From: a bacterium
Lineage (GTDB): Bacteria > Electryoneota > JAOADG01
Reading direction: 5' to 3'
Length of the DNA stretch: 62,308 bases
NCBI GenBank assembly: GCA_026417415.1
Contig: JAOADG010000016.1
Span: 1-62,308, forward strand
Shown one piece after another: positions 15,164-40,230 of this stretch. The notes beneath the pieces are model-generated. The model was not told where the DNA came from, made no database searches, and saw nothing but the letters and a program-made list of their open reading frames with translations. Within the stretch, counting starts at the first letter, position 1; every line of letters starts with the position of its first letter. A program made the translations under genes and the position numbers.

Positions 15164-15187
15164 CCAATCTATGAATGATTGTACAAG

Positions 15188-15216
15188 TTGACAAACATTG
15201 AAAAATACACTATACT
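15188..15216 (+). promoter_or_regulatory. Canonical sigma-70 promoter of the glycan cluster
   Basis: TTGACA (15188-15193), exactly 17 bases, then TATACT (15211-15216). Transcription should start about 15223, some 34 bases before the deacetylase ATG at 15257. This rules out the longer reading frame that begins with TTG at 15179. Confidence 0.85.
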
Positions 15217-15256
15217 CTGCAACTTCAAACGCAAAAACCTTTTTAACGAAACAACA

Positions 15257-16258
15257 ATGAAAACACAGATTCGAAAATTGTATTCCATTTTATCGGTTAA
15301 AAGCGGTCTAACAAAAATGATGCGCAAAATCAATAAACACGAAGGTGCGATCATTTTTGTGGGACATCAAGTAAATGAAACAAACGACAATCGTTTGGAA
15401 CCGTTACCACCAAAGTACCTTGATGAGCAAATCGCTTACCTCAAAAAGCATTTTCAATTTTTGTCCCTATCTAAATTGTTAGAGTGCTATGAATTCAATC
15501 AACCAATTCCCCCTAAAACAGTGGTTTTAACTTTTGATGATGGATTTCGAGATAACTACACGTACGCATTCCCAATTTTGCAAAAGTACGGGGTGACTGC
15601 CACCATTTTTTTAACTACCGGATGCATAGATTCAGGTGAATTCCCTTGGTCCCAACGGTTGGGATATATGATTACCAATACAACGGTTAAAACCATTCAT
15701 TTGCCACAATATCAAATTTTTCAATTCAATCTTGAAAGCGAAACCAATAAAACTTATGTATTTCGTACTTTAGCTAAGGTATTGTCGGAAACCCCTTTTA
15801 TTGAAAGGGAACAACTGTTAAATCAATTTCAACAAGTATTTCAAGTAATTCCACCAAAAGATCGTATGTTAACGTGGGATATGATCCAAGAGATGAAACA
15901 AAATGGGTTTGAATTTGGAGGGCATACCGTTTCACATCCACATCTAACCAAAATTCCCCCGCAGGAAGCAAAACAAGAAATTCGCAATTGTTTAGAAACA
16001 ATTCGTTTAAAATTAGGTGTAGAAAATCCTCCTTTTGCTTTTCCTGCAGGAAAGTCAAATGATGATTTGGTTGAGTATGTGAAGTTGATAGGATTTCGTA
16101 GTTGTTTCCGTTCTTCTTACAAAAGAAGGTACAATACTTTGTCCAACAGTAATCCGTTTCGTTTATCCCGCCTTGGTTTACCCAATGCACCAGCAATCTT
16201 TTTAGAAGCAGAAGTGGATGGATTGCTTTATTGGGTAAGGAAGTCGGTTCAAAAATAA
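15257..16258 (+). CDS. Polysaccharide deacetylase family protein
   Basis: 333 residues of the NodB/CE4 carbohydrate-esterase fold. Motif 1 is LTFDDGFRDNY (catalytic Asp pair), motif 2 the zinc-binding GGHTVSHPHL (HxxxH), and a FAFPAGKSNDD segment follows. CE4 enzymes remove N- or O-acyl groups from sugars. No signal peptide is seen, so a cytosolic or membrane-face role on a lipid-linked glycan is likely. The start ATG 15257 is selected because a strong promoter lies within the possible N-terminal extension. First gene of the glycan operon. Confidence 0.85.
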   Translation: MKTQIRKLYSILSVKSGLTKMMRKINKHEGAIIFVGHQVNETNDNRLEPLPPKYLDEQIAYLKKHFQFLSLSKLLECYEFNQPIPPKTVVLTFDDGFRDNYTYAFPILQKYGVTATIFLTTGCIDSGEFPWSQRLGYMITNTTVKTIHLPQYQIFQFNLESETNKTYVFRTLAKVLSETPFIEREQLLNQFQQVFQVIPPKDRMLTWDMIQEMKQNGFEFGGHTVSHPHLTKIPPQEAKQEIRNCLETIRLKLGVENPPFAFPAGKSNDDLVEYVKLIGFRSCFRSSYKRRYNTLSNSNPFRLSRLGLPNAPAIFLEAEVDGLLYWVRKSVQK

Positions 16259-16267
16259 AGGATTCAA

Positions 16268-18157
16268 ATGGCAGGCCTTTTTGGTTCCACCCACCCTTAC
16301 CTTCAACTCTTGGATATTGAAAAGTATGCTAACCGCTTAAAGCATACTCCACGCATTCAATACAAGTTGCTCCCATCATCATTTACTCCCAGTTTGGGAG
16401 TGGTGTATTTTGAACAAAATCCAGAGGAAGCTGTTTTTATTGAAAACGAACTATGTGCCATCGTATTATGCGGGATCGCTTACCAAGGAAAAAAGCGTTG
16501 TACTGTTGAAAATCTGTTGCATTTTTTTTGTACCCAAGGGTTACAAACATTATGGGATTTGGATGGTACTTATACGATAGCAGTCAAAGATAAACAAGCA
16601 AATTTAGTTACCATTTTTACCGACCCTTACTGTACCCAAAATGTGTATTACACTCATACAAATGGTATTTTTTCTTTTGCACCTGAAGCAAAACTGTTGT
16701 TCCCATTAAGCGGGCTCAAACCGCGTGTATCTGTTGATGGCGTGATGCAAATTCTAAACAACAAATACACTTTTGGGGAAACAACCATGTTTGAGGAGGT
16801 AAAACAATTAGAAGCGGGAGTAGCGTTACAATACCATCTTAACGGGAATTGTTTCAAAACCGTACGATATTGGGATCTTGTTTTTGACTATTCCAAAATG
16901 TCACTAAAAGATGCTGTAAATCTTGTGAGACAAGAAGTCCTTGAAGCCCACCAAATCCATTTTCAAGATATTACCCCAAAGGATAAGTACTATCTTTTTT
17001 TAACAGGTGGACTGGATTCACGTGCAAATTTAGCGATTGCGTCGCAAATCCATCAAAAGCCCACCAAAACATTATCATGGGGAGTACGTGAAGATATCCC
17101 TCAATCTGATCCCTTTATTGCTCGACAATTATCAAATTTAGCGGGAGTAGAATTTCAGTTTTGTCAGTATGATGAATCCACCTTTCTAAACCATGTAAAG
17201 AAGTGGCTCTACATTTCAGAATTGCGTAGTTTTAATATGGGAAGTTTCGCTGCTGGGGAATTGTATTTTGCTCAGCAGGGGGTTGATGATGGCAAATTTG
17301 TTGTGATTGGGGATCACATTTTTGGGGCCGGTGGATATGCAGAAAATGTAAATGATGCAATCTATCATACGGTCCGCGTACCTAAAAACTTTTTATTACC
17401 CCAGTTAGAGGGATTATTCATTCATGAAGCAAAAGAAGAGTTAGTGAAGCAATATCAAACAAAATTGTTTCAAGTCATAAACAATTGTAAAAATACTAAT
17501 TTTAAGGATATTCAAGATTATCTTAATTTTCATGTCGTCACTACCAGATGGTTATTTGCTCCCGGAAATTTCAAAGATCCCGTTTTGCCTGTAAGAAGAC
17601 CTTTTATGCTGAAAAACGTGATCCAGTTGGTTCAACAATTACCCCCTTTTTTACGAATTGATAAAAAAGCTTTCTACCAAATGATGAAAGTAACCTTTCC
17701 AATGTACATGAAAATTCCATTTCAAGCAGCAGATAGTATTATTGATTGGAAAACAGCGATTATCAAAAACCAATCCATTCAGGAATATCTTAAATTCTAC
17801 TTGAATAGAGAACACTTAAAACTTACTCCCATTGGTACGATGATTAACTACCCACGTTTTCAAAATTTTATTGAGACCTATTTTCGTGTTAAGAAAAATG
17901 AGGGATCAACAAAATACACAAGAATGAGATTACTATACGATTTACGAAAAATGGTTACTGTAAATCCACTACTTGGAAAAATGGCTAAAATTGCAGAACC
18001 TATCGTGGTTAAACTTACACGGTTTAAGACCAGTGAAACAGAGAATAACCCCAGTGAGTTGATCTTGAAAGTAGCCCTAATCTCTATTTTTTCTGAACTT
18101 GTAAACAATGGTACTTTTGAAACGGGTTGGCAAAATACTACTCTGCTTGAGGAATAA
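16268..18157 (+). CDS. Asparagine synthase-like protein without the glutaminase cysteine (glycan cluster)
   Basis: 629 residues with the two-domain AsnB layout. The N-terminal Ntn-like domain (about 1-200) starts MAGLFG, so the Cys2 nucleophile is replaced by Ala. A synthetase domain follows with the PP-loop TGGLDSR (246-252). It should still activate a carboxylate with ATP, but it cannot hydrolyse glutamine. It would use ammonia, an amino sugar or another amine, as in beta-lactam synthetase or lasso-peptide cyclases. GGA precedes ATG by 6 bases. It is paralogous to the protein at 26884-28770, with the PP-loop at exactly the same position. The substrate is probably a sugar acid or amino group of the surface glycan (inference). 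Confidence 0.85.
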   Translation: MAGLFGSTHPYLQLLDIEKYANRLKHTPRIQYKLLPSSFTPSLGVVYFEQNPEEAVFIENELCAIVLCGIAYQGKKRCTVENLLHFFCTQGLQTLWDLDGTYTIAVKDKQANLVTIFTDPYCTQNVYYTHTNGIFSFAPEAKLLFPLSGLKPRVSVDGVMQILNNKYTFGETTMFEEVKQLEAGVALQYHLNGNCFKTVRYWDLVFDYSKMSLKDAVNLVRQEVLEAHQIHFQDITPKDKYYLFLTGGLDSRANLAIASQIHQKPTKTLSWGVREDIPQSDPFIARQLSNLAGVEFQFCQYDESTFLNHVKKWLYISELRSFNMGSFAAGELYFAQQGVDDGKFVVIGDHIFGAGGYAENVNDAIYHTVRVPKNFLLPQLEGLFIHEAKEELVKQYQTKLFQVINNCKNTNFKDIQDYLNFHVVTTRWLFAPGNFKDPVLPVRRPFMLKNVIQLVQQLPPFLRIDKKAFYQMMKVTFPMYMKIPFQAADSIIDWKTAIIKNQSIQEYLKFYLNREHLKLTPIGTMINYPRFQNFIETYFRVKKNEGSTKYTRMRLLYDLRKMVTVNPLLGKMAKIAEPIVVKLTRFKTSETENNPSELILKVALISIFSELVNNGTFETGWQNTTLLEE

Positions 18158-19165
18158 ATGAAAGTTCTTATTGCAACCAATATGTATCCAACTCAAAAAA
18201 ATCCAAAATCTGGAACCTACATTGAACAACAAATTTCAAGTTTAATTGCCAATGGAATAGATGTAAAAATTGCTTTGTATAACCGTGTGGACAACGGTTG
18301 GAAAGAGTATTACAAAGGGCTCTTTACGTTTAAGAATGTAGTAAAAAAAGAAAAACCAGATTTGGTTCACATCATGTATGGGGGAATTTTAGCCGCATCA
18401 CTTACCTGGCGTACGTTATATGTTCCTACCCTTATTTCATTTGGGGGCTCTGACTTGATACCCAGTCCGGTTGAAAATTTGTGGGTTAGGACTAGGTTAC
18501 GTGTGGGGAGATGGGGGTCCTATTGGGCATTGCGTAAAGCCCAAGGTGCTATCGTGAAAGCCAAATGCATGCTTGAGTATATACCACCTTGGTTTCCAAA
18601 AGAAAAAGTATGGGTGTTACCCAATGGTGTGAATTTACAAAGGTTTTTCCCTATGGATAAATTGGAATGTCGTAAAAAGTTGGGTTGGAACGAACATGAG
18701 TTTTGTATCATGTTTTCTCTTAACGAAATCAACCGACGTTCAAAGGGAAACGAGATTGCAGAAGCTGCTGTACAGGAGCTTAAAAGGCGTGGCATTCCTG
18801 CTGTCTTGAAAAAACCCAATCGAATCCCACATTCTGAAATGGCGGTTTGGATGAATGCTGCGGATGTATTTTTGTTAACATCGGAACACGAAGGATCCCC
18901 CAATGTGATTAAAGAAGCACTGGCTTGTAATACTCCCGTGGTATCTACAGACGTAGGTGATGTAGCGGAAAGGATTGAGGGGATTAAAGGGTGTTATTTA
19001 ACTGAAAGAAATGCTATTGATGTTGCCAATGCATTAGAAAAGGTGTATCGTACTCCAATTCAGATACAAAGTAGACAAAAAGTAGAAAATGAGGTGTCGC
19101 TGGAGAAAATTGCGAAAAAGTTAATTGAAATTTATCATAACTTCATTCAAAATTCAGAAAAGTAG
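18158..19165 (+). CDS. GT4-family glycosyltransferase
   Basis: 335 residues with the GT-B fold. MKVLIATNMYPTQKNPKSGTY opens the N-terminal domain. The C-terminal nucleotide-sugar domain has VLPNGVNLQRF and HEGSPNVIKEALACNTPVVS with the catalytic E-x7-E pattern typical of GT4. It starts directly after the preceding stop, with GAGGAA overlapping that gene's end. A retaining transferase adding one sugar of the surface glycan; the donor is not predictable. Confidence 0.9.
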   Translation: MKVLIATNMYPTQKNPKSGTYIEQQISSLIANGIDVKIALYNRVDNGWKEYYKGLFTFKNVVKKEKPDLVHIMYGGILAASLTWRTLYVPTLISFGGSDLIPSPVENLWVRTRLRVGRWGSYWALRKAQGAIVKAKCMLEYIPPWFPKEKVWVLPNGVNLQRFFPMDKLECRKKLGWNEHEFCIMFSLNEINRRSKGNEIAEAAVQELKRRGIPAVLKKPNRIPHSEMAVWMNAADVFLLTSEHEGSPNVIKEALACNTPVVSTDVGDVAERIEGIKGCYLTERNAIDVANALEKVYRTPIQIQSRQKVENEVSLEKIAKKLIEIYHNFIQNSEK

Positions 19166-19171
19166 TATAGA

Positions 19172-20410
19172 ATGCATATTCTGTATTTACATCAACATTT
19201 TTCGTTACCCAATGGTACCACTGGTGTTCGTTCTTATGAATTTTCTCGTTTTTTAGTTCAAAAAGGGCACAAAGTAACGGTAATTACCGGTTTGCATGAA
19301 TGGTCCGGTATAAAAAAGACCACTCATCGTATCATAGAAATCCAAATCATTGATGGGATTCAAGTGATCATTGTGAATGTGCCTTATGGTCAAAAAATGA
19401 ACTATCTACGGAGAATCTTTGCTTTTCTTAGTTTTCTTATATGGGCTACCATTGCTGCTATCAAAGTGAAACAAGTGGACCTAATCTATGCTACTTCTAC
19501 TCCCATAACCATTGCTGTTCCCGGGATGATAACTGCTTTTTTGAAAAGGAAACCGTTTCTTTTTGAAGTCCGTGATGTTTGGCCCGATATTCCGCTTGAG
19601 ATGGGGATTATTACCAATCCCATCATTATCTATTTAACCAAGTTATTGGAAAAATTCACGTACCGTTTTGCAAAGCACATTGTTGCATTATCTCCAGGAA
19701 TGAAAAGCCGTATTGTTCAAAAAGGCATTCCTGATCAAAAAGTGACCGTTATTCCCAATGCAAGTGATTTACTGAAAGAATGGACATCACCTACAGAAGC
19801 AAAGGAATTTGTTCATCGTCACTATCCTTATTTAGTGGATAGGCCTTTTTTGGTTTACATTGGTACCTTTGGTCTGGTAAATCGAGTTGATTACTGCGTA
19901 GAATTAGCTAAACGGACATTGGATATAAACCCCAATTTTGCGTATTTACTTATTGGAGATGGAAAAGAAAAAGAAAATGTTCGGCAGGCAGCACAAGAAG
20001 CAAAAGTGTTAAATAAAAACTTGTTTATAGAAGATGCCGTGCCGCGGCACACCATACCATACATTTTAGGTGCATCTACCATTATCGCCAGTTTTGTCTC
20101 TCCAATAAAAGTGTTAGAAGATAATTCTGCCAATAAATTTTTTGATGCTTTAGGTGCCGGTAAACCTGTTCTGATTAATTATGGAGGATGGCAAGCCGAT
20201 TTATTGCTTGAAACAGGCGCGGGTGTTGTTTTAGATCCTTATGACCTTGATCATGCTGCGCATCAGTTGATAGAAAAAATAAATAACCCTGAATGGTTAC
20301 AAAACGCATCATCCAAAAGTTTTGAATTAGCCAAAACCAAATTTCATCGTAAACTACTTGCAGAACAATTAGAAACCATCTTTTTGGAGCAAGTGGGTCA
20401 GAAAAAATGA
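19172..20410 (+). CDS. GT4-family glycosyltransferase (WcaI/WbuB-like)
   Basis: 412 residues. The N-terminus MHILYLHQHFSLPNGTTGVRS and the FEVRDVWPDIP segment (about 130-140) are hallmarks of the WcaI/WbuB subgroup, which often adds an N-acetylated aminosugar in O-antigen or capsule assembly. VIPNASD, IGDGKEKEN and DALGAGKPVLINYGG mark the donor domain. A hydrophobic stretch near residues 78-95 and another near 112-128 suggest membrane association. It overlaps the next gene as ATGA. Confidence 0.9.
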   Translation: MHILYLHQHFSLPNGTTGVRSYEFSRFLVQKGHKVTVITGLHEWSGIKKTTHRIIEIQIIDGIQVIIVNVPYGQKMNYLRRIFAFLSFLIWATIAAIKVKQVDLIYATSTPITIAVPGMITAFLKRKPFLFEVRDVWPDIPLEMGIITNPIIIYLTKLLEKFTYRFAKHIVALSPGMKSRIVQKGIPDQKVTVIPNASDLLKEWTSPTEAKEFVHRHYPYLVDRPFLVYIGTFGLVNRVDYCVELAKRTLDINPNFAYLLIGDGKEKENVRQAAQEAKVLNKNLFIEDAVPRHTIPYILGASTIIASFVSPIKVLEDNSANKFFDALGAGKPVLINYGGWQADLLLETGAGVVLDPYDLDHAAHQLIEKINNPEWLQNASSKSFELAKTKFHRKLLAEQLETIFLEQVGQKK

Positions 20411-21093
20411 GCTTAGACAAATTTCGTGATGAATTTGAGATACCTGAAAATTACTTTCCAAATCTACCAGTAAAAGAGTATTTTGGGAAACGAATTCTTG
20501 ATTTTCTTTTAACAATGATTGCTCTTTTCTTTGCATTACCAGTGATGGGGATTATTGCAATCTTAGTTGCTTGGAAAATGGGCAGACCAATTTTATTTTG
20601 CCAAAAGCGACCGGGATTATTAGGAAAGGGGTTCTGGATGTTCAAGTTTCGAACAATGAATTCAAAACGGGACGCAGAAGGAAAGTTATTACCTGACGGA
20701 GAACGTTTAACTCCATTAGGAATCTGGTTAAGAAGAACCAGTTTAGATGAATTACCCGAGTTATTGAATATCTTAAAAGGAGATATGTCTATAGTGGGTC
20801 CAAGACCCTTACTTTTTCGTTATATGCCTTATTTTACCACGGAAGAACGAAAACGTTTTTTGGTTCGGCCGGGGCTAACCGGATTGGCACAAATTTCTGG
20901 TAGAAACTTATTGAATTGGGATAAACGGCTTGCCTGTGATGTTGAATACTATGAAAAGCAGTCACTATTCTTAGATTTAAAAATTATCTTTTTAACATTT
21001 AAAAAATTTTTAATTCGAGAAGGGGTTTCTCCCAATGTAGATGAAGTAGAAACTTGGTTAGATGAAGAGCGCAAGGATCAAAAGCAAGTATGA
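20407..21093 (+). CDS. Sugar transferase (initiating phosphoglycosyltransferase, short PglC/WcaJ-type)
   Basis: 228 residues. One N-terminal hydrophobic segment (about 30-53) leads into the catalytic domain with KFRTMNSKRDAEGKLLPDGE, RRTSLDELPELLNILKGDMS and VGPRPLL. Enzymes of this family transfer a phosphosugar from a UDP-sugar to undecaprenyl phosphate, starting repeat-unit assembly. This is the committed first step of the cluster. Its ends overlap both neighbours by ATGA, so it is translated in register with them. Confidence 0.92.
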   Translation: MSLDKFRDEFEIPENYFPNLPVKEYFGKRILDFLLTMIALFFALPVMGIIAILVAWKMGRPILFCQKRPGLLGKGFWMFKFRTMNSKRDAEGKLLPDGERLTPLGIWLRRTSLDELPELLNILKGDMSIVGPRPLLFRYMPYFTTEERKRFLVRPGLTGLAQISGRNLLNWDKRLACDVEYYEKQSLFLDLKIIFLTFKKFLIREGVSPNVDEVETWLDEERKDQKQV

Positions 21094-22157
21094 AGCCAAT
21101 TGCTGAACTCATATCATCGTCAGATCCACGTTGGAATGAAATCCTTAAACGATGTCCACACGACTTTTATTCCTTACCCAATTATTGTGAAGTAGAAGCC
21201 AAACGAATGGGTGGGACTTCAGCAGCGCTTTACCTTGCAAAAGAAGACCAGGTATTTCTTTTACCGATCATCATTCGTCAACTTCCAAACCAATTCTCCT
21301 TATCATTAGATTGGTTAGATGCAACTTCACCTTATGGCTATTCAGGTATTGTTACGAACCTCTTGGAAAACGAACTTCAATTGTTTTTGGAAGATTTGAA
21401 AGATTTGTGTTTTGAAACACTTCAAAAACACAAACTTTGCACTATATTCGTCCGTTTGCATCCTTTACTTAATCCATATTCAGATTTACCTTGGGGGTGT
21501 TTTAGACGGCACGGAGATGTGTATTGGATAGATTTAATGAAATCTTCCCAAGAATTAAATCAAATGGTAAGATCAAGATTTAGAAGCTATATCCATGCGA
21601 CTATAAAATCGGGTGCGAAAGTTAGAATTGATGAACAGTTTGAACACTATGATACTTTTATTCAATTGTATTACAATACTATGGAAGATGTAGGCGCTGA
21701 AGATTGGTATTTTTTTTCTAAAGAATATTTTTACCAATTAAAAGAAGCATTAGGAGAAGTATTAAAATTGGTCCTGGTAGAAATTGAAGGAAAAATTTAT
21801 GCCGCGGGTTTGTATACTGAATGCAACGGGATTGTAGAGTATCATTTATCTGGAAAACATAAATCGGAAGATTGGGCACATTTAACCAAATTGATGATGG
21901 TTTCTATGCGTGATTGGGGTAAGGCAAGAGGAAACCGATACTTTCATTTGGGTGGAGGTGTGGGAGCATCCCAAAATTCCCCATTGACCTTCTTTAAATC
22001 TGGTTTTACAAAAACGACAAGCCCTTTTTGTTCTTGGAGAATTGTTACTGATCAAGAAGTTTATCAATGGATGATTCAAAAATGGGAATCTATAACTCAA
22101 CAAAAAGCAGATGGAATAGAAGGGTATTTTCCAGCTTATCGTAAAGGTATCATGTAA
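21090..22157 (+). CDS. FemAB/GNAT-like acyl- or aminoacyl-transferase
   Basis: 355 residues resembling the FemAB-related GNAT proteins of exopolysaccharide loci. The N-terminal half carries the DWLDATSPYGYSG pattern. The C-terminal half has AAGLYTECNGIVEYHLSG and RYFHLGGGVGASQNSPL, typical of the lipid II peptide-bridge and glycan-modifying group. It could add an amino acid or acyl group to an amino sugar. No transmembrane helix. It overlaps the preceding gene by ATGA. Confidence 0.75.
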   Translation: MKPIAELISSSDPRWNEILKRCPHDFYSLPNYCEVEAKRMGGTSAALYLAKEDQVFLLPIIIRQLPNQFSLSLDWLDATSPYGYSGIVTNLLENELQLFLEDLKDLCFETLQKHKLCTIFVRLHPLLNPYSDLPWGCFRRHGDVYWIDLMKSSQELNQMVRSRFRSYIHATIKSGAKVRIDEQFEHYDTFIQLYYNTMEDVGAEDWYFFSKEYFYQLKEALGEVLKLVLVEIEGKIYAAGLYTECNGIVEYHLSGKHKSEDWAHLTKLMMVSMRDWGKARGNRYFHLGGGVGASQNSPLTFFKSGFTKTTSPFCSWRIVTDQEVYQWMIQKWESITQQKADGIEGYFPAYRKGIM

Positions 22158-22188
22158 AAAAAATTAATCAATCTGTCAAAGGTTTTTT

Positions 22189-23337
22189 ATGAATAAAAGT
22201 AAACGACTGTATCTTTCGCCGCCTCAGATGTCCGAGGAAGGGTATGAATTACAGTACATTCAAGAAGCATTCGCATCTAATTGGATCGCCCCTCTGGGTC
22301 CACAGGTAGATGCTTTTGAAAAAGAGTTTGGTGAATATATTGGTGTACCTTATACCTTGGCACTATCATCAGGAACAGCTGCATTGCATCTGGCACTTTT
22401 GGTTTTAGGAGTTGAAACGGGAGATGAAGTCGTCTGCAGTTCATTTACTTTTGCTGCCTCTGCAAATGCAATTACTTATGTAGGAGCAAAACCAATTTTT
22501 GTGGATAGTGATGAAGAAACGTGGAATCTCTCACCTTACTGGTTAGAAGTTCTTTTAAAAGAAAAAGCGAAAAAAAATCAATTACCTAAAGCAATTGTTG
22601 CTGTGGATATATTAGGACAAAGTTGTCATTACAATCCTATCTTAAAATTGTGTGAAGAATATCAAATTCCTTTGATAGAAGATGCTGCGGAAGCATTAGG
22701 TGCTGAATATTATGGAAAAAAATGTGGCCAATTCGGTGTGATTTCTGCATTTTCCTTCAATGGCAATAAAATTATTACCACTTCTGGTGGTGGAATGTTG
22801 GCTTCCAACAATAAAGAATACATTGATAAAGCAAGATTTTTATCTACCCAAGCACGGGATCCAGCCCCACATTACCAACATTCCACAATTGGGTACAATT
22901 ATCGCTTGAGTAATATTTTAGCAGCCATCGGTAGAGGTCAACTCAAAGTTTTGCCAAAAAGAATTTTACGAAGGAGAGAAATTTTTCGTACTTATCAAAA
23001 AGGTTTTGAAAATGTCCCTGGAATTACTTGGATGCCAGAACCTAAAGAGTTTTATTCTACCAATTGGTTAACCTGTGCATTAATTGATCCAAAAGTGTTT
23101 GGGGCGACGCGAGAAGATATACGATTGAAATTAGAAGAGCACAATATTGAATCACGACCCTTATGGAAACCTATGCATTTACAACCAGTTTTTCAAAATT
23201 GTGAGTACTATGGTGAAAATGTATCGGAAAAACTGTTTGAATTAGGGATTTGTTTACCTTCTGGAGGTGCGATGACCAAAGAACAACAAGATTTTATTAT
23301 TCAAGAAGTCATATCTTTATCTAAAAATAAATTGTGA
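22189..23337 (+). CDS. DegT/DnrJ/EryC1/StrS sugar aminotransferase
   Basis: PLP-dependent transaminase of 382 residues that aminates a 4-keto (or 3-keto) nucleotide sugar. SSGTAALHLAL (60-70) binds the cofactor phosphate, and DAAEALGAEYYG and the PLP lysine K194 in FSFNGNKIITTSGGGM follow. It is closest in style to PglE/PseC-type enzymes making UDP-4-amino sugars. The partner dehydratase is not in the cluster. AAAGG precedes ATG. Confidence 0.92.
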   Translation: MNKSKRLYLSPPQMSEEGYELQYIQEAFASNWIAPLGPQVDAFEKEFGEYIGVPYTLALSSGTAALHLALLVLGVETGDEVVCSSFTFAASANAITYVGAKPIFVDSDEETWNLSPYWLEVLLKEKAKKNQLPKAIVAVDILGQSCHYNPILKLCEEYQIPLIEDAAEALGAEYYGKKCGQFGVISAFSFNGNKIITTSGGGMLASNNKEYIDKARFLSTQARDPAPHYQHSTIGYNYRLSNILAAIGRGQLKVLPKRILRRREIFRTYQKGFENVPGITWMPEPKEFYSTNWLTCALIDPKVFGATREDIRLKLEEHNIESRPLWKPMHLQPVFQNCEYYGENVSEKLFELGICLPSGGAMTKEQQDFIIQEVISLSKNKL

Positions 23338-23344
23338 TGCTATC

Positions 23345-24640
23345 ATGATAAGCCAAGCACAAACACTACAACCATCGTATTCAAGACACATTCACGAAGA
23401 ACGAGTACCAACGCTCGTCCGATTCTTTGCTTATCTGTTTTTCATTAGTTTGCCTTTCAATCAATTTACAGTAAAAATTCTTACTCCTACAGATAACATA
23501 ACCAAATATACTGGTTTTTTACTAATAATCGTCTTTTTTCTTGCCTATCGGTTTCATTTTGGGTTTTACACGAAAAGTTCAAAATGGTTTTTAATTTACT
23601 TTATTTATACTTCAGCATTAGAATTAATCCGTTATATGTATATTGACCCATTTTATGAACGATCGCTTTTATCTGCTGCGTTTCAACATGTTCAAGTGGC
23701 TGGGCTCTTTTTTGTATTTGCAAATATTACCCGTGACAAGAAAGTCGTTTATAGAATTTTCGATTTGTTTATCATTATCAATCTGATTAAAGCAATAATT
23801 TTAACGTTTAATATCCGTATGTTTATGACTGGTTTTGAGCGCGAAACGGGAAGGTTTGGAATTTTAGGAGAGAATCTTAATCAAACTGCAATACTATTAA
23901 GTGTAACATTTGTAATTATATTAGCAAGAACACTGAATCGTAGAAAGTTTGATATTCAAGTATTTCTATATTTTCTTTCAATGGCATTAATTGTTTTTTC
24001 TATTGTTAAAACAGGAAGTCGTGGAGGAGTTGTGGTTTTAACCACGGGAACTTTATTGACTTTGATCAAACACTTTAATACACAAAACTTGTTCAGAAAT
24101 ATTCTATTAATTATTACTATTGTTTATTTTACGATTACCTTTTTATCTGAGACACCACTTTATCAGAGAATGTTAAGTGCAATTCAATTGAAAGAAACGG
24201 GGTATCGTTGGGAATTGGTCACTGCCAGTTTTGAACTTTTAAAGACAAATTATTGGCTTGGATATGGTTCACATTACCCAGAAATTTTAGGGAACTATTT
24301 AGGTAAAACCAGAATCCAAGCACACAATACCTATTTACAGTTAATTTTATCTTTTGGAATAATTGGTTTCTTATTATTTATGGTTTCTTTTGCTTTATCG
24401 TTCAGAGACCTTTATAGAAATCAATATAATTTAATAGGAAGTTCGTCGTTAATTATATTTGTGTCATTTTTAATATCTTTTGCTAGCACTGGTTTGGCAG
24501 TAAACAAAACCTTATGGGTATTTATCGCAATTTTTTCAAATATTGCGATTTGGAACTATTCAAAAGAATCCGTACCGAAAGTAAAAGAAGTCGAACCGAT
24601 TGAAAGTAGTGCCTTAGAAGCTGGTAAGCAATATGCCTGA
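23345..24640 (+). CDS. O-antigen ligase/polymerase family membrane protein
   Basis: 431 residues with about ten transmembrane segments and a larger outer loop near residues 275-330 (ETGYRWELVTASFELL, GYGSHYPEILGNYLG, RIQAHNTYLQLILSFG). The TGSRGG motif near residue 220 and the H-N-x-Y-L-Q pattern match the Wzy_C/O-antigen ligase superfamily. It either polymerises the repeat unit or ligates it to a lipid acceptor. Sequence alone does not decide. It overlaps the following glycosyltransferase by 8 bases, and by eye is more A/T-rich than the housekeeping genes. Confidence 0.85.
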   Translation: MISQAQTLQPSYSRHIHEERVPTLVRFFAYLFFISLPFNQFTVKILTPTDNITKYTGFLLIIVFFLAYRFHFGFYTKSSKWFLIYFIYTSALELIRYMYIDPFYERSLLSAAFQHVQVAGLFFVFANITRDKKVVYRIFDLFIIINLIKAIILTFNIRMFMTGFERETGRFGILGENLNQTAILLSVTFVIILARTLNRRKFDIQVFLYFLSMALIVFSIVKTGSRGGVVVLTTGTLLTLIKHFNTQNLFRNILLIITIVYFTITFLSETPLYQRMLSAIQLKETGYRWELVTASFELLKTNYWLGYGSHYPEILGNYLGKTRIQAHNTYLQLILSFGIIGFLLFMVSFALSFRDLYRNQYNLIGSSSLIIFVSFLISFASTGLAVNKTLWVFIAIFSNIAIWNYSKESVPKVKEVEPIESSALEAGKQYA

Positions 24641-25760
24641 AAAGTTAAAGATTGCTTATTTAATCGGTGGTTTAGGTGCTGGCGGTTCTGAAAGACAACT
24701 TACTGAATTGGCTTCACTTATGAAAAATCGTGGCCATACGGTTGAAATTAGTATCTATAATAACTTTACATCTCCTTATGAAGAGCTTTTAATAGAAAGA
24801 CAGATTCCGTTAAATAAATTTGAAGGGCGAAATCGGCTCCATAAAATTCTTTTGATTCGGAATTGGCTAAAAAAATTTCAACCCGATATAGTACACGGTT
24901 TTATGAAAAAACCTTCAAATGTCGCTATCTTAGCAAGTTTAGGAATTAAATCATTTGCTATAGTCGGGTCGGATTTTTCAGGAGCAACCTATAGTAAAAA
25001 TAGAAAACTGCTTTGGACCTCATTGGTTTTATTTCAACTTGCGGATGCTGTGGTCACGCAGACCCATATGAACAAAGGAAATATAGTAAAAAAGGCACCT
25101 TTCTTAAAGCATAAAGTTCATATAATCAGAAATGGTGTTGATACTCGTCGTTTTCAGTACGTTCCAAAAGAAAAAACCATTCCTTTTCGCTTTTTAACCG
25201 TAGCAAATGTAAAAAAGATAAAAAACCCAATAGGCACTATTGAAGCAATTTATAAACTTAAACAATTCACAGATATTCCTTTTACCCTTACGTGGGCAGG
25301 TTCTTATCAAAATGCGAATGGGATTGAACCTGAATATCAAAAAGCAATTGAACTTATTCAAAAATATCATTTAGAAAATGTCATCCATTTTATCGGACCT
25401 GTATCTAACATTTCAGAAGAATACCAAAAGGCACACGCATTGGTTCATACATCTATCCAAGAAGGTGTTTCTAATGCTATTTTAGAAGCCATGGCAAGTG
25501 GTTTACCCATAGTTGCCAGCGATATTGCAGACAATCGCTTTTTTGTAATAGAAAAGAAAAATGGGTTTATTTGTAATCCTCATTTAGTCGATTCAATTGT
25601 GGATGCAATGGGTAAAATGTTAAAACTTTCAGAAAAAGAATGGAAAGAATTTGGCAAAAATTCTCACCTTATTGCAGAAGAAATGTTTGGGATGGAACGA
25701 TTCGCAAATGAATACGAAAACTTGTATTACAATCTATTAACAAAGAGGGGTAAAAAATAA
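24633..25760 (+). CDS. GT4-family glycosyltransferase
   Basis: 375 residues, GT-B fold. IAYLIGGLGAGGSERQLTELA forms the N-terminal acceptor domain. RNGVDTRRF and VHTSIQEGVSNAILEAMASGLPIVAS form the donor domain, with the glutamates expected in GT4. Third GT4 enzyme of the cluster, so with the initiating transferase the repeat has at least four sugars if each adds one. The stop overlaps the next start as TAATG. Confidence 0.9.
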   Translation: MPEKLKIAYLIGGLGAGGSERQLTELASLMKNRGHTVEISIYNNFTSPYEELLIERQIPLNKFEGRNRLHKILLIRNWLKKFQPDIVHGFMKKPSNVAILASLGIKSFAIVGSDFSGATYSKNRKLLWTSLVLFQLADAVVTQTHMNKGNIVKKAPFLKHKVHIIRNGVDTRRFQYVPKEKTIPFRFLTVANVKKIKNPIGTIEAIYKLKQFTDIPFTLTWAGSYQNANGIEPEYQKAIELIQKYHLENVIHFIGPVSNISEEYQKAHALVHTSIQEGVSNAILEAMASGLPIVASDIADNRFFVIEKKNGFICNPHLVDSIVDAMGKMLKLSEKEWKEFGKNSHLIAEEMFGMERFANEYENLYYNLLTKRGKK

Positions 25761-26887
25761 TGAATGTGGAGTTTATCAAAAAGGTAAAAGAATTAACTCC
25801 ACATTGGCTGAGAAATTTAATCCAGTCTAAAAATTCTTTGGTTAAGTATAAAATTCGGATTAACGAAAGTGAAAATCCATATCGCCATGTGACCGAAAAT
25901 TTAAACAATCCTCGCCATTATCCCTTTTGCATAGGGATTTTTAGAAATATCGCTAGTTATCATAAATACTATATTGCGGCTTGTGAAGAGTTACAAGTTC
26001 CCTATAAAGTGCTTGACCTCTTTTCCAATGATTGGTTACACATTGTAAAAAATAGTCAATGTGATGTTTTTTTAGTTTGGCCCGATGCGATGATTTCTAT
26101 ATGGAATGAAGTGATCACAGAACGAGTAAAAGTTTTAGAGCAAGATTTAGGATTATTTGTGTACCCTACTTATAAAGAAATTTATATGTATGAAAACAAA
26201 CGTAGATTATCCTATTGGCTTACAGCTCACAATTACCCAACCCCCCAAACATGGATTTTCTATAATGAAGATGAAGCATATGATTTTGCGAAGAAATGTC
26301 CATTACCCATTGTCCACAAAACCAATTTCGGCTCTTCCGCAAAAGGCATAAGAATATTAAAGACCCGTAACGAAGTTCAATCAACGATAAAAAAAGCATT
26401 TCAAAGCGGGCATGTACCTTTAGGTTATGATTTAAGAGATAAAGAATGGGGAACTATCCTTTTTCAAGAATATTTAGAAAATGTCAAAGAATGGCGATTG
26501 GTGCGTGTGAATGAATCATACTTTTGCAGAGAGAAATTTCGTATCGGTGATTTTCATAGTGGTTCCGGTAAAGTAGGGTGGGCTTTTCCCCCCGATGGAT
26601 TATTGGATATTACCAAAGAAATTACGGATACTTTTGGCTTTACTAGTATGAACATAGATTTTTTCGAAACGAAAGACGGAAAATTCTTAATCAATGAGCT
26701 TCATACTGTGTTTGGTGCGATTTTAGAGAAAAATTTAAATTTGAACGATAAATACATGGGACGATGGACGTTCAATTCCCAAACTAAAACGTGGGAGTTC
26801 GAACACGGGTACTTTTATCAAAATGCCTGTGCGAACCTTCGGATAGAATACCTTATCCAATTTCTTCTAAAAACAAAAAGAAATTAA
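25760..26887 (+). CDS. ATP-grasp ligase of the glycan cluster
   Basis: 375 residues. The ATP-grasp fold is visible as VHKTNFGSSAKGIRIL (glycine-rich ATP loop, about residue 195), ILFQEYLENVKEWRLVRV and the metal-binding NIDFF/FLINELHTVFGA segment (about 297-320). These enzymes join a carboxylate to an amine or thiol through an acyl-phosphate. In this context it may attach an amino acid to, or amidate, a sugar acid. The same chemistry is expected of the adjacent AsnB-like proteins. No close named family was recognised. Its TAA overlaps the stop of the opposite-strand AsnB-like gene (TTAA). Confidence 0.8.
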   Translation: MNVEFIKKVKELTPHWLRNLIQSKNSLVKYKIRINESENPYRHVTENLNNPRHYPFCIGIFRNIASYHKYYIAACEELQVPYKVLDLFSNDWLHIVKNSQCDVFLVWPDAMISIWNEVITERVKVLEQDLGLFVYPTYKEIYMYENKRRLSYWLTAHNYPTPQTWIFYNEDEAYDFAKKCPLPIVHKTNFGSSAKGIRILKTRNEVQSTIKKAFQSGHVPLGYDLRDKEWGTILFQEYLENVKEWRLVRVNESYFCREKFRIGDFHSGSGKVGWAFPPDGLLDITKEITDTFGFTSMNIDFFETKDGKFLINELHTVFGAILEKNLNLNDKYMGRWTFNSQTKTWEFEHGYFYQNACANLRIEYLIQFLLKTKRN

Positions 26888-28770
26888 CTCTTCCGATCGT
26901 AATCTGTTTGTGGTTGATAGTGGACCACAGGATTCCAAAAATGATTATCTGGTTTATCTTCAATTTCTCTACAAATCAATTCAATGGTAGCCATCCGCAA
27001 GATGAGTTCGGCTTTTCTTTTCCACAATGCAAGATCTTGCTCAAGAACCTCTTTTATAAACTCTGGTTTATATAAATTCCTTGTTAACATTTCGCTGGGT
27101 CTCATCATTTCGGTAAACTCTGTAGTCAAACATGGGGTAAAAGTATCAAAATGTTTAGATGGGGTAATTCCAGAGTAAAGTTTTAATTTTACTCGATAAA
27201 CTTTACGAATAAAGTGTTTAGCATCTTTTAATCGTTTGTTAATGGCCATTGGAAATGTTTTAAACGAAAGAGGAGCAGCATATCCACCATAGATTGTTTT
27301 AATCATTGCAGCACGTGGACACATCCGATATTGTACACGGCAAAGTAAGTCATGACCTATACGATACTTCAAAGGAATTTGAAAAGAAAAATCAAAAAAA
27401 CGCCTTCCACGAAGTGGGCTAATAGCTGGCATCGTATGGGCATTAGAGGAAATAAACAGAGAAGAAAAGCTTGCAACATTTCGCCAATTAAAAGCAGCGT
27501 CCAATTGTTGACCAACTTTTAAGTTGGGTTTTGCAGTGTAAAGGTTGTAAATCCTATCTTCTAAGTAACAATTATACCCATCCATCCAGTTTACATTGAA
27601 ATTGCTTTTTTGGACAGATACATCTTGGTAAAAGCGATACTCAAGTTGTTTTTTAACACTGGCAAGTGCAACTTGATGAATACGCCAATATTCTTGGCCA
27701 AATGAGAAATCTCGTATATTATCCAAACCACCACCACCTAAATGAAAAGCGAAATCTTTGCTGTTTTTCAGTCGAGATGACATTTGACGAAGAATAGCGT
27801 TAAACTTTATATCGCCATTGGTATAATAGATTAACTGTTTAGTTAACTGAGGTGTCACTTCTGTGGGATAACCTTCAGTTTGTCGGTTAAATCTTAGTTT
27901 CCAGTTCATTATTTTTGAAACTTCCATGCTCACTTTTACATCCGGGTCTTCATCCATCCCATTTACAGTGACCTCGAAAGGAAGACCTAAAAAATGCAGT
28001 GTAGAAGCCACCAATCGTGAATCGTAACCACCTGTCAAATCTGCAATCATACGAGGATCTAATAAAGCTAAGCGATTAAAAATATCAAGAATTAGAGCTT
28101 GGGTATCGGTAGCAACTTCATCTTTATTTTTATATTGATCGGTATGAGTTTGATAGGGTTCCCAATAAGTAAGAATTTGAAAGGTATTTTTAGAAAATTC
28201 CAATAAAGTACCCATATCTAAACGAAATAGGCCTTCAAACATGGTATGAGGAGCTAAAATAGTACCTCGCATTAACAAATGAGCAGCGCCCCACGCATTT
28301 AATTTTAACCCTAAATGCTTAGCTAAAGCCAACGCTAGAGTACCTACAAAAATACCGTTCGGAGTAGGGTAATAGTAACTGTTCCTTTGAATAGCAACAT
28401 CACTGGACAAATATCCAATACCTTTGGTATCATTCCAAAACGATATTGAATAGCAACCTTCTAAATCATAAAAAGGTTGTTTAGAGCCGGAGGATAAAAC
28501 TTGATATAATTGTGAAAAATCAATTTTTGCTTCACGTCCAACGGTATTGTAAGCAATCCCAGCAATAGCAATCCAACCGTCAGGAAATTGGACAAACTGA
28601 ACCTGCTTTTGGTTAATAGTAGGAATGAAGACGACGGATCGTTTTGTACGATGAACTTTTCCACTTTCTATCACTTGAATAGAGTTTAAGTGGTTAGAGA
28701 TCTTTTCAAATAATTGATAAACAGGTTCAATCTCTTCGTTTTTGGAGAAATAAGCGAGGTAATGAGGCAT
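26884..28770 (-). CDS. Second asparagine synthase-like protein lacking Cys2
   Basis: 628 residues, paralogue of the 16268 protein and within one residue of its length. The N-terminus is MPHYLAYFSK, so there is neither Cys2 nor a usual Ntn start. The PP-loop TGGYDSR again lies at 246-252, with PLRGRRFFDFSFQIPLKYR near the C-terminal substrate region. The glutaminase activity should be absent. It faces the glycan operon tail to tail, with a 4-base overlap of stop codons and no room for a terminator. ATG is preceded by GGAAAG. Probably an adenylating amide- or lactam-forming enzyme of the same glycan pathway. Confidence 0.82.
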   Translation of the reverse strand: MPHYLAYFSKNEEIEPVYQLFEKISNHLNSIQVIESGKVHRTKRSVVFIPTINQKQVQFVQFPDGWIAIAGIAYNTVGREAKIDFSQLYQVLSSGSKQPFYDLEGCYSISFWNDTKGIGYLSSDVAIQRNSYYYPTPNGIFVGTLALALAKHLGLKLNAWGAAHLLMRGTILAPHTMFEGLFRLDMGTLLEFSKNTFQILTYWEPYQTHTDQYKNKDEVATDTQALILDIFNRLALLDPRMIADLTGGYDSRLVASTLHFLGLPFEVTVNGMDEDPDVKVSMEVSKIMNWKLRFNRQTEGYPTEVTPQLTKQLIYYTNGDIKFNAILRQMSSRLKNSKDFAFHLGGGGLDNIRDFSFGQEYWRIHQVALASVKKQLEYRFYQDVSVQKSNFNVNWMDGYNCYLEDRIYNLYTAKPNLKVGQQLDAAFNWRNVASFSSLFISSNAHTMPAISPLRGRRFFDFSFQIPLKYRIGHDLLCRVQYRMCPRAAMIKTIYGGYAAPLSFKTFPMAINKRLKDAKHFIRKVYRVKLKLYSGITPSKHFDTFTPCLTTEFTEMMRPSEMLTRNLYKPEFIKEVLEQDLALWKRKAELILRMATIELICREIEDKPDNHFWNPVVHYQPQTDYDRKS

Positions 28771-39189: not shown

Positions 39190-40230
39190 CTACCTTATGA
39201 TTTTTATTTGAATTTCACTACCAGTCAATTCACCAATCATAGCAGCAACTTCATGATTTTCAAGCAATGTTTGCACCAATTGATTTACACGGTCAGAGGG
39301 AACTGAAAGAAGAAGACCGCCGGATGTTTGTGGGTCAAATAGTAATGAAAGTAAACTATCATCGTGAAAATTGATATGGATTTTCGATTCAACAAATAGA
39401 CGATTGCGATATAAACCTCCAGCACGATTTTTGGTGTCTTTTGCAAGTTCATATGCGTGGGGTAAAATAGGGATTTGTTCTGCGTAAAGTGTAATACCGA
39501 CTTTACTCTGTTTTGCAATATCTAAGCAGTGTCCTATTAATCCAAACCCTGTAACGTCGGTAGCACAACGCACTTCAAATTGTTTAGCAAGTACCGATGC
39601 TTGACGGTTCAAATGCACCAAAGATTGATGTAAAATCGTTTCAGCGTCTTTACTTAAAACTCCTCGTTTTGCTGCGGTAGCTAAGATACCTGTACCAATG
39701 CCTTTGGTCAGAACCAATACATCCCCTTCTTTACCTTTTGATTTCATCATCAGGGTTGATTCAGATACTATACCTGTTACCGAAAAACCGAATTTTAACT
39801 CTTTATCTTGAACGGTATGTCCACCAAGCAATTCACAACCTGCCTCTTGCAATTTATCTTGTGCACCTAAAAAAATTTCTTTAAGCACCTCAGTTGGTAA
39901 TTGTTGAATTGGAAGGCAAGCGATGGTAAGTGCAGAAAGCGGGTCGCCGCCCATAGCATAGACATCAGAAAGTGCATTTGCAGCAGCAGCAGCACCGTAA
40001 ATGTAAGGATCGTCTACGATAGGGGTAAAAAAATCTACCGTTTGAACCAGCAGATCGCCGCTGGGAGAACGAATTACACCCGCATCATCAAAGGCAGATA
40101 GACCCACGACCACATTTTGATCAGGTTTTGAGGAAAATCCGCTACCGAGTAGTTCGACCAGCTCCGCAGGTCCCACTTTAGAAGCTCAACCGGCACAATC
40201 TGAAAAACCAGTGAGGCGGATTTTATCCAT
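39190..40230 (-). CDS. selD: Selenophosphate synthase, itself a selenoprotein (in-frame TGA = Sec15)
   Basis: Makes selenophosphate from selenide and ATP. Conventional reading starts at GTG 40176 and yields 328 residues without the active site. Upstream, the frame continues through one TGA (40186-40188) to ATG 40230, giving 346 residues. The new N-terminus reads GFSDCAGUASKVGPAEL, where U15 and K18 fall exactly where SelD has its catalytic Cys/Sec and conserved Lys. A second in-frame ATG (40251) would add 7 residues. The rest shows VQTVDFFTP, NALSDVYAMGG, GGHTVQD and DPQTSGG, normal for SelD. First gene of the run ending at 30133. Confidence 0.9.
40160..40188 (-). promoter_or_regulatory. Candidate bacterial SECIS element next to the selD TGA
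   Basis: Starting at the A of the TGA, AGCUUC (40186-40181) can pair with GGAGCU (40165-40160), one G-U pair, around a 15-base loop containing GGGACC. Size and position suit a bacterial SECIS, though the stem is short. Confidence 0.45.

Follow-up and report, generated by a model that had tools for sequence, protein, structure and literature searches.

The window analyzed here is a 62,308-nucleotide stretch (contig JAOADG010000016.1 of assembly GCA_026417415.1, positions 1-62,308) from a genome of the candidate phylum Electryoneota (2.2 Mb in 40 contigs, completeness 100%). At positions 15179-26887 (+) it carries a run of genes that is best read as a surface-glycan operon, including those for a CE4 polysaccharide deacetylase, an asparagine synthetase B (AsnB)-like protein (Asn1), a FemAB-like transferase and an ATP-grasp ligase; the gene for a second AsnB-like protein (Asn2) converges on the operon end. 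The proposal favored here, with a probability of roughly 0.5, is that the repeat unit of the glycan carries amide-linked amino-acid-type substituents made by the enzymes of the operon. Besides gene content, the observations that bear on this proposal are the loss of the glutaminase site from both AsnB-like proteins, the separation of AsnB homologues lacking the catalytic cysteine from those having it by a single branch, and the partial recurrence of the enzyme kit elsewhere. Since parts of the kit recur in Planctomycetota and in haloarchaea, it is probable that the cluster adds amino-acid-like groups to surface sugars. For all of the enzymes we infer substrates and products, and for the AsnB-like proteins also catalytic competence.

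Active site features of Asn1 and Asn2

Asn1 (629 residues; 16268-18157, +) and Asn2 (628 residues; 26884-28770, −), both encoded by open reading frames (ORFs) with an ATG start, read TGGLDSR and TGGYDSR, respectively, at T246-R252, a variant of the SGGxDS PP-loop with Thr and Arg. As a preliminary description of this DNA had stated, neither has Cys2, the catalytic cysteine of asparagine synthetase B, residue 2 being Ala in Asn1 and Pro in Asn2. Alignment with canonical AsnBs, including that of Escherichia coli, indicates that the Asn of the NGE motif (which we take to be Asn74) is likewise replaced, by Cys in Asn1 and by Ala in Asn2. The loss of both Cys2 and this Asn excludes glutamine hydrolysis as a predicted activity, and so supports the earlier suggestion that neither protein hydrolyzes glutamine.

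Asn1 passes the Pfam Asn_synthase model (PF00733; 26.2 bits, cut-off 21), and is the only protein in the source genome to do so; a Pfam search of Asn2 gave no match. Both are under the cut-off of the asparagine synthetase B model TIGR01536 (94.7 bits for Asn1 and 25.6 for Asn2, cut-off 267.1) and far under that of TIGR03108, the WbpS/XrtA-type amidotransferase (uronamide-synthase) model (71.9 and 22.1 bits, cut-off 816.9). Scores with the lasso and macrolactam cyclase models are also low, at most 29.0 bits with NF033535 (cut-off 525) and at most 38.8 bits with NF033561 (cut-off 300).

The catalytic cysteine has also been lost in β-lactam synthetase, CarA and the lasso cyclases, which, like Asn1 and Asn2, combine an AsnB fold and a PP-loop with the lack of a glutaminase. 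The parallel previously drawn with such enzymes holds for the PP-loop and the cysteine loss, but for nothing further; the cyclase models are not satisfied, the Glu348 loop and, as aligned, Lys449 are gone, and the genomic context offers no lactam substrate. The Tyr of the β-lactam synthetase Tyr-Glu dyad, which corresponds to the Glu348 position, is deleted in Asn1 and is Gly in Asn2.

A class of AsnB homologues lacking Cys2

Relatives, viral contigs and a single plasmid provided a comparison set of 45 AsnB homologues; Cys2 is missing from 17 of these and present in 28. A G-x-G-[GSA]-D-E loop is present in none of the 17 Cys2-less proteins, nearly all of which read [ST]GGxDSR; by contrast, 26 of the 28 Cys2 proteins have this loop together with SGGxDS[STA], the other two matching neither regular expression. 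In a tree of the 45 sequences a single branch (support 100/99) splits the Cys2-less from the Cys2 proteins, which was the phylogenetic placement called for in the preliminary description; on this sequence evidence, the cysteine loss in Asn1 and Asn2 is not a chance substitution. The tree carries a long-branch warning and its end branches are long, so that the exact placement of Asn1 among the Cys2-less proteins is uncertain and the pairing of Asn2 with the protein of locus L061 (98/98) is unsure. Asn1 and Asn2 are not recent duplicates of one another. Most of the viral relatives retrieved with an AsnB alignment are canonical AsnBs that have Cys2.

A tblastn search of plasmids with Asn1 led to haloarchaeal proteins annotated as asparagine synthase-related, one of which led in turn to 15 plasmid records. 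All 15 of the haloarchaeal proteins lack Cys2; 13 read SGGxDSR, with the remaining two unmatched by the expression. One Cys2-less AsnB gene is on plasmid pHME505 of Haloferax mediterranei. The Cys2-less class is thus widespread and not new as a sequence, and no account of its function was found in the papers searched. In several of the plasmids, the neighbors of the Cys2-less AsnB gene resemble those in the window. A CE4 deacetylase gene is nearby at loci L137, L139 and L146, a FemAB-type GNAT gene at L103, L140 and L141, and at L146 a gene for an ATP-grasp 'carboxylate-amine ligase' overlaps the AsnB gene at its end; at L142 and L144 the AsnB genes themselves are in tandem or paired. These are raw neighbor counts and, unlike in the window, there is often no full glycan operon around the haloarchaeal genes. 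The ligase at L146 has relatives in the second ATP-grasp proteins of loci L058 and L079, but shows no detectable relation to that of the window.

The ATP-grasp ligase and its relatives

The free-standing ATP-grasp protein (25760-26887, +) is the best-supported amide former of the cluster, by virtue of its context in other genomes. It passes the CPSase_L_D2 model (PF02786; 21.0 bits, cut-off 19.8), and residues D300, N312 and E313, which form the metal-site Asp/Asn/Glu pattern, are invariant across four relatives. Its best model matches are weak, and are with RimK, carbamoyl-phosphate synthase and D-Ala-D-Ala ligase models, including 40.3 bits with the RimK-type ligase model TIGR00768 (cut-off 143.4).

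Full-length relatives in the searched genomes are those of Ca. Electryonea clarkiae (47% identity) and of an Anaerohalosphaeraceae genome (38%). The gene for the latter is 12 nt from one for a Cys2-less AsnB-like protein; in Ca. Electryonea clarkiae a transposase pair is located between the two. Including the window, Cys2-less AsnB-like and ATP-grasp genes co-occur at three of three loci in two phyla, in accord with the neighborhood association that had been suggested as a check, and on some haloarchaeal plasmids the association extends to FemAB-like, CE4 and ATP-grasp genes. The window ATP-grasp family is rare, no relative at 1e-15 being present in 391 of 392 Planctomycetota genomes sampled (the sole match was the same Anaerohalosphaeraceae genome), so the three-of-three adjacency is a small sample. 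No viral relatives were found. Also common to the Electryonea and Anaerohalosphaeraceae loci are a second ATP-grasp protein, a PGA_cap protein and a 381-residue protein without a family match. Strict orthology of the AsnB-like proteins at the three loci was considered and rejected; the Electryonea and planctomycete proteins are 33% identical, Asn2 matches the planctomycete protein over only 126 residues and, in the tree, Asn2 joins the L061 protein instead, albeit in a join of long branches.

A further relative (34% over 319 columns) is encoded by E. coli plasmid NZ_AP027746.1 (locus L102), in a capsule locus which, like the window, combines a homologous ATP-grasp gene with one for a nucleotide-sugar dehydrogenase, and which also encodes an N5-(carboxyethyl)ornithine synthase (unlike the window), an epimerase and a flippase. 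This locus is uncharacterized, is flanked by IS91 elements and occurs in two of 5,426 E. coli genomes. From its gene content, the ligase may couple a carboxyethyl amino acid to a uronic acid. There is precedent for chemistry of this type in Campylobacter jejuni, where the C-terminal ATP-grasp domain of Cj1438 forms an amide with glucuronate in the capsule (PMC11800379). Both ATP-grasp proteins belong to surface polysaccharide clusters, with the joining of glucuronate to an amine being known for Cj1438 and proposed for the window; by contrast with the window protein, the Cj1438 domain is TupA-like and is fused to a glycosyltransferase.

Proposed roles of the operon enzymes

The FemAB-like protein (21090-22157, +), a VimA-like GNAT-fold transferase, passes PF13480 (24.0 bits, cut-off 22) and fails PF02388 (17.7 bits, cut-off 24) and TIGR03019 (32.7 bits, cut-off 260.35); its gene and that for the ATP-grasp ligase are present as the preliminary description had reported. 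The CE4 deacetylase (15179-16258, +; PF01522, 96.1 bits, cut-off 23.1), for which a VimE-like role is proposed, is encoded 9 nt upstream of Asn1, in the same gene run as the VimA-like protein; the pairing of two such genes in one glycan cluster is a feature of the Wbp/Vim pathway of Porphyromonas gingivalis. The linking-sugar pathway of that organism employs VimE, VimA and an AsnB; VimE and VimA bring about sugar aminoacylation, with VimA determining which amino acid goes on the sugar (PMC7468200).

By analogy, the CE4 enzyme would deacetylate an N-acetylated amino sugar, to which the FemAB-like protein would then add an aminoacyl group. The ATP-grasp ligase would activate a carboxylate, most likely that of a uronic acid, and then couple it to an amine. 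A UDP-glucose 6-dehydrogenase (TuaD-like; 1166-2494, −; TIGR03026, 466 bits, cut-off 189.8) is the likely source of uronic acid; its gene is linked to, but outside, the operon, 13-15 kb upstream together with that for a short-chain dehydrogenase/reductase (SDR) sugar enzyme. Neither the CE4 deacetylase nor this dehydrogenase had been mentioned before, although both are relevant here. The AsnB-like proteins are members of a glutamine-independent class; carboxylate activation with ATP bound at the PP-loop is probably retained in them, and the amine acceptor would arrive as a substrate. Since the ATP-site signature is kept, but the catalytic residues of the AsnB and β-lactam synthetase mechanisms are not, the AsnB-like reaction is only a proposal. 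Thus, with respect to the four amide-forming enzymes envisaged earlier, the ATP-grasp ligase is the strongest candidate by context, whereas amide formation by the two AsnB-like proteins is not established; the earlier interpretation as a whole is partly supported, and of the amino-acyl, peptidyl or lactam decorations then suggested, a lactam is without support.

Several observations weigh against the proposed amino-acid-type amide decoration. The Glu348 loop (GEGSDE in E. coli AsnB, in whose numbering the residue is Glu348) has contracted to GDHIFG in Asn1 and reads GGGGLDN in Asn2, although the Asp following it is retained in both; no Lys aligns at the Lys449 position, where the C-terminal alignment is weak; and the structure models of Asn1 and Asn2 are too poor for active-site inspection (mean predicted local distance difference test scores of 45 and 36, respectively). 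The window ATP-grasp protein reaches no NCBIfam cut-off, Asn2 has no close orthologue among the AsnB partners at the other two ATP-grasp loci (27% over 126 residues), and no AsnB-like protein is among the listed genes of the E. coli plasmid locus. The FemAB-like protein has no relative at 1e-5 in 60 other genomes, including all other Electryoneota searched. Half of the examined haloarchaeal loci have no partner genes nearby, several of them having none within 5-7 kb; six of the loci do have such genes.

Alternative interpretations

With Glu348 and its loop absent and Lys449 unrecognizable, catalysis by the AsnB-like proteins may have been lost. It is possible, though unlikely, that they have no catalytic activity and act as subunits for binding, scaffolding or regulation, with the chemistry being carried out by the ATP-grasp and FemAB-like proteins only. 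The additional loss of Cys2 and the NGE Asn, and the long end branches in the AsnB tree, are consistent with such a role. By contrast, the PP-loop, which dead domains usually lose, is near-invariant as [ST]GGxDSR across the class, in Electryoneota as well as in haloarchaea, and many members occur as multiple gene copies.

A somewhat less probable possibility is that the AsnB-like proteins are ammonia-dependent uronamide or asparagine synthetases, with free ammonia taking the place of glutamine, giving simple primary amides. WbpS homologues are indeed involved in uronamide synthesis in glycan clusters (PMC7468200) and, since no other protein in the genome is above the PF00733 cut-off, Asn1 could cover asparagine synthesis. 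However, Asn1 is encoded within the glycan operon, both proteins score far below TIGR03108 and TIGR01536, and the Cys2 proteins form a separate group in the tree. Cys2-bearing relatives that are simple uronamide synthases, which the preliminary description had regarded as the finding that would count against it, were not encountered, the nearest relatives also lacking Cys2. Asparagine in the source genome may be made via the tRNA-dependent route.

The resemblance to the P. gingivalis system raises the further possibility, considered improbable, that the cluster makes a Wbp/Vim-like linking glycan, onto which the C termini of type IX secretion cargo proteins would be joined. The two systems have in common a CE4 (VimE-like) enzyme, a FemAB/VimA-like protein, an AsnB homologue and glycosyltransferases for one glycan (the cluster in the window also has a phosphoglycosyltransferase), the VimE, VimA and AsnB functions all being part of the P. 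gingivalis pathway (PMC7468200), and both hosts are rich in type IX secretion cargo proteins. Within its 2.2 Mb the source genome encodes 62 Por_Secre_tail domains and eight C25-family peptidases; this very high cargo load makes a connection with type IX secretion possible. They differ in that the AsnB-like proteins of the window lack Cys2 and are far under the WbpS-type TIGR03108 cut-off, in that the window has an ATP-grasp ligase, and in that no wbpB or wbpD orthologue was identified within the window; TIGR03019 is also far from being reached. The absence of this FemAB-like gene at 1e-5 from other, cargo-bearing, Electryoneota argues against a phylum-wide cargo anchor. A similar kit is present in haloarchaea, in which a type IX secretion system is not known. 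A generalization in which the [ST]GGxDSR Cys2-less AsnB-like proteins are a large bacterial and archaeal class, coupling amines to sugar carboxylates or aminoacyl groups independently of ammonia and alongside ATP-grasp, FemAB-like and CE4 partners, and in which the Electryoneota product is a type IX cargo-anchoring glycan, is improbable.

That the AsnB-like proteins act on ribosomal peptides or secreted proteins in the manner of lasso cyclases is highly improbable since, although there are weak lasso cyclase matches and the Cys2-less AsnB-like genes of one Electryoneota family (f6) adjoin genes for secreted FG-GAP proteins, the cyclase models are missed by a wide margin, the operon shows no gene for a precursor or a B protein, and the neighbors are glycosyltransferases.

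Amide-decorated glycan clusters are already known, and it is the Cys2-less enzyme class that merits biochemistry; the literature searched gave no direct account of a cluster combining AsnB, ATP-grasp and an amide-decorated O-antigen. AsnB homologues in glycan clusters are usually taken for glutamine-using uronamide synthases; the occurrence of the Cys2-less class with like partners in two bacterial phyla and haloarchaea implies that this assignment is mistaken for many genes with the annotation asparagine synthase-related. If the module does make amino-acid-decorated glycans, gene content would predict a class of surface modifications now found only by chemical analysis.

Organization of the operon

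The genes of the operon are co-directional, several of them overlapping and none separated by more than 31 nt, and the Asn2 gene, on the opposite strand, overlaps the ATP-grasp gene tail-to-tail by 4 nt. In addition to the genes discussed above, the operon encodes three GT4 glycosyltransferases (18158-19165, +, PF13692 and PF00534; 19172-20410, +, PF13439 and PF13579; and 24633-25760, +, PF00534, 94 bits), a polyprenyl-phosphate sugar-1-phosphate transferase (20407-21093, +; PF02397, 192.6 bits), a DegT/LegC-family sugar aminotransferase (22189-23337, +; PF01041, 337.9 bits; TIGR04181, 377 bits, below the cut-off of 420) and a protein of the Wzy_C polymerase or O-antigen ligase family (23345-24640, +; PF04932, 61.4 bits). 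A Wzy-type route, with assembly on undecaprenyl phosphate, is probable for the glycan.

Candidate selenoproteins in Electryoneota

In the f6 family of Electryoneota, Cys2-less AsnB-like genes are located near arrays of genes for FG-GAP proteins with type IX secretion tails. A single in-frame TGA interrupts each of the f6 FG-GAP proteins at a homologous position, and the next residue is Cys in all copies read, e.g. SVSYG-UGA-C-IGATPRIVDWNEDG; the FG-GAP proteins of a sister family (f2), which are about 30-35% identical to those of f6, have the same G-TGA-C site. Proteins with the UGA-Cys site are encoded at loci L059, L062, L063, L065, L105, L120, L123, L125 and L126 (f6 and f2). ORFs of ~102 residues beside the f6 AsnB-like genes were considered as precursors of ribosomally synthesized and post-translationally modified peptides; this was rejected, most being the 5′ ends of FG-GAP proteins cut by the in-frame UGA. 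Because a signal peptide precedes the TGA and a tail domain comes after it, read-through is very likely, and the UGA-Cys FG-GAP proteins are likely a new family of extracellular selenoproteins. A short CCAC/GTGG hairpin is present 3′ of the TGA, with a folding energy not below that of shuffled sequences. The term FG-GAP is absent from a 2026 review (PMC13188914).

A selenocysteine tRNA (tRNA-Sec) gene is above cut-off in six of six genomes tested, with two copies in all five f6 genomes; in an earlier survey, two such genes were reported for eight bacterial genomes (PMC5330540). The second tRNA-Sec has a distinct sequence and a UCA anticodon (L059, 9640-9732; L062, 17477-17569; L063, 13374-13466; L065, 15853-15945; L105, 9178-9270). 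In four of the f6 genomes its gene adjoins selD, clustered with genes for UGA-containing FG-GAP and Cys2-less AsnB-like proteins. The window also contains selD, called at 39190-40176 (−), with an in-frame TGA just upstream (40186-40188; motif CAG-UGA-ASK). The selD gene of the window probably starts at 40230 or 40251, and SelD is probably itself a selenoprotein.

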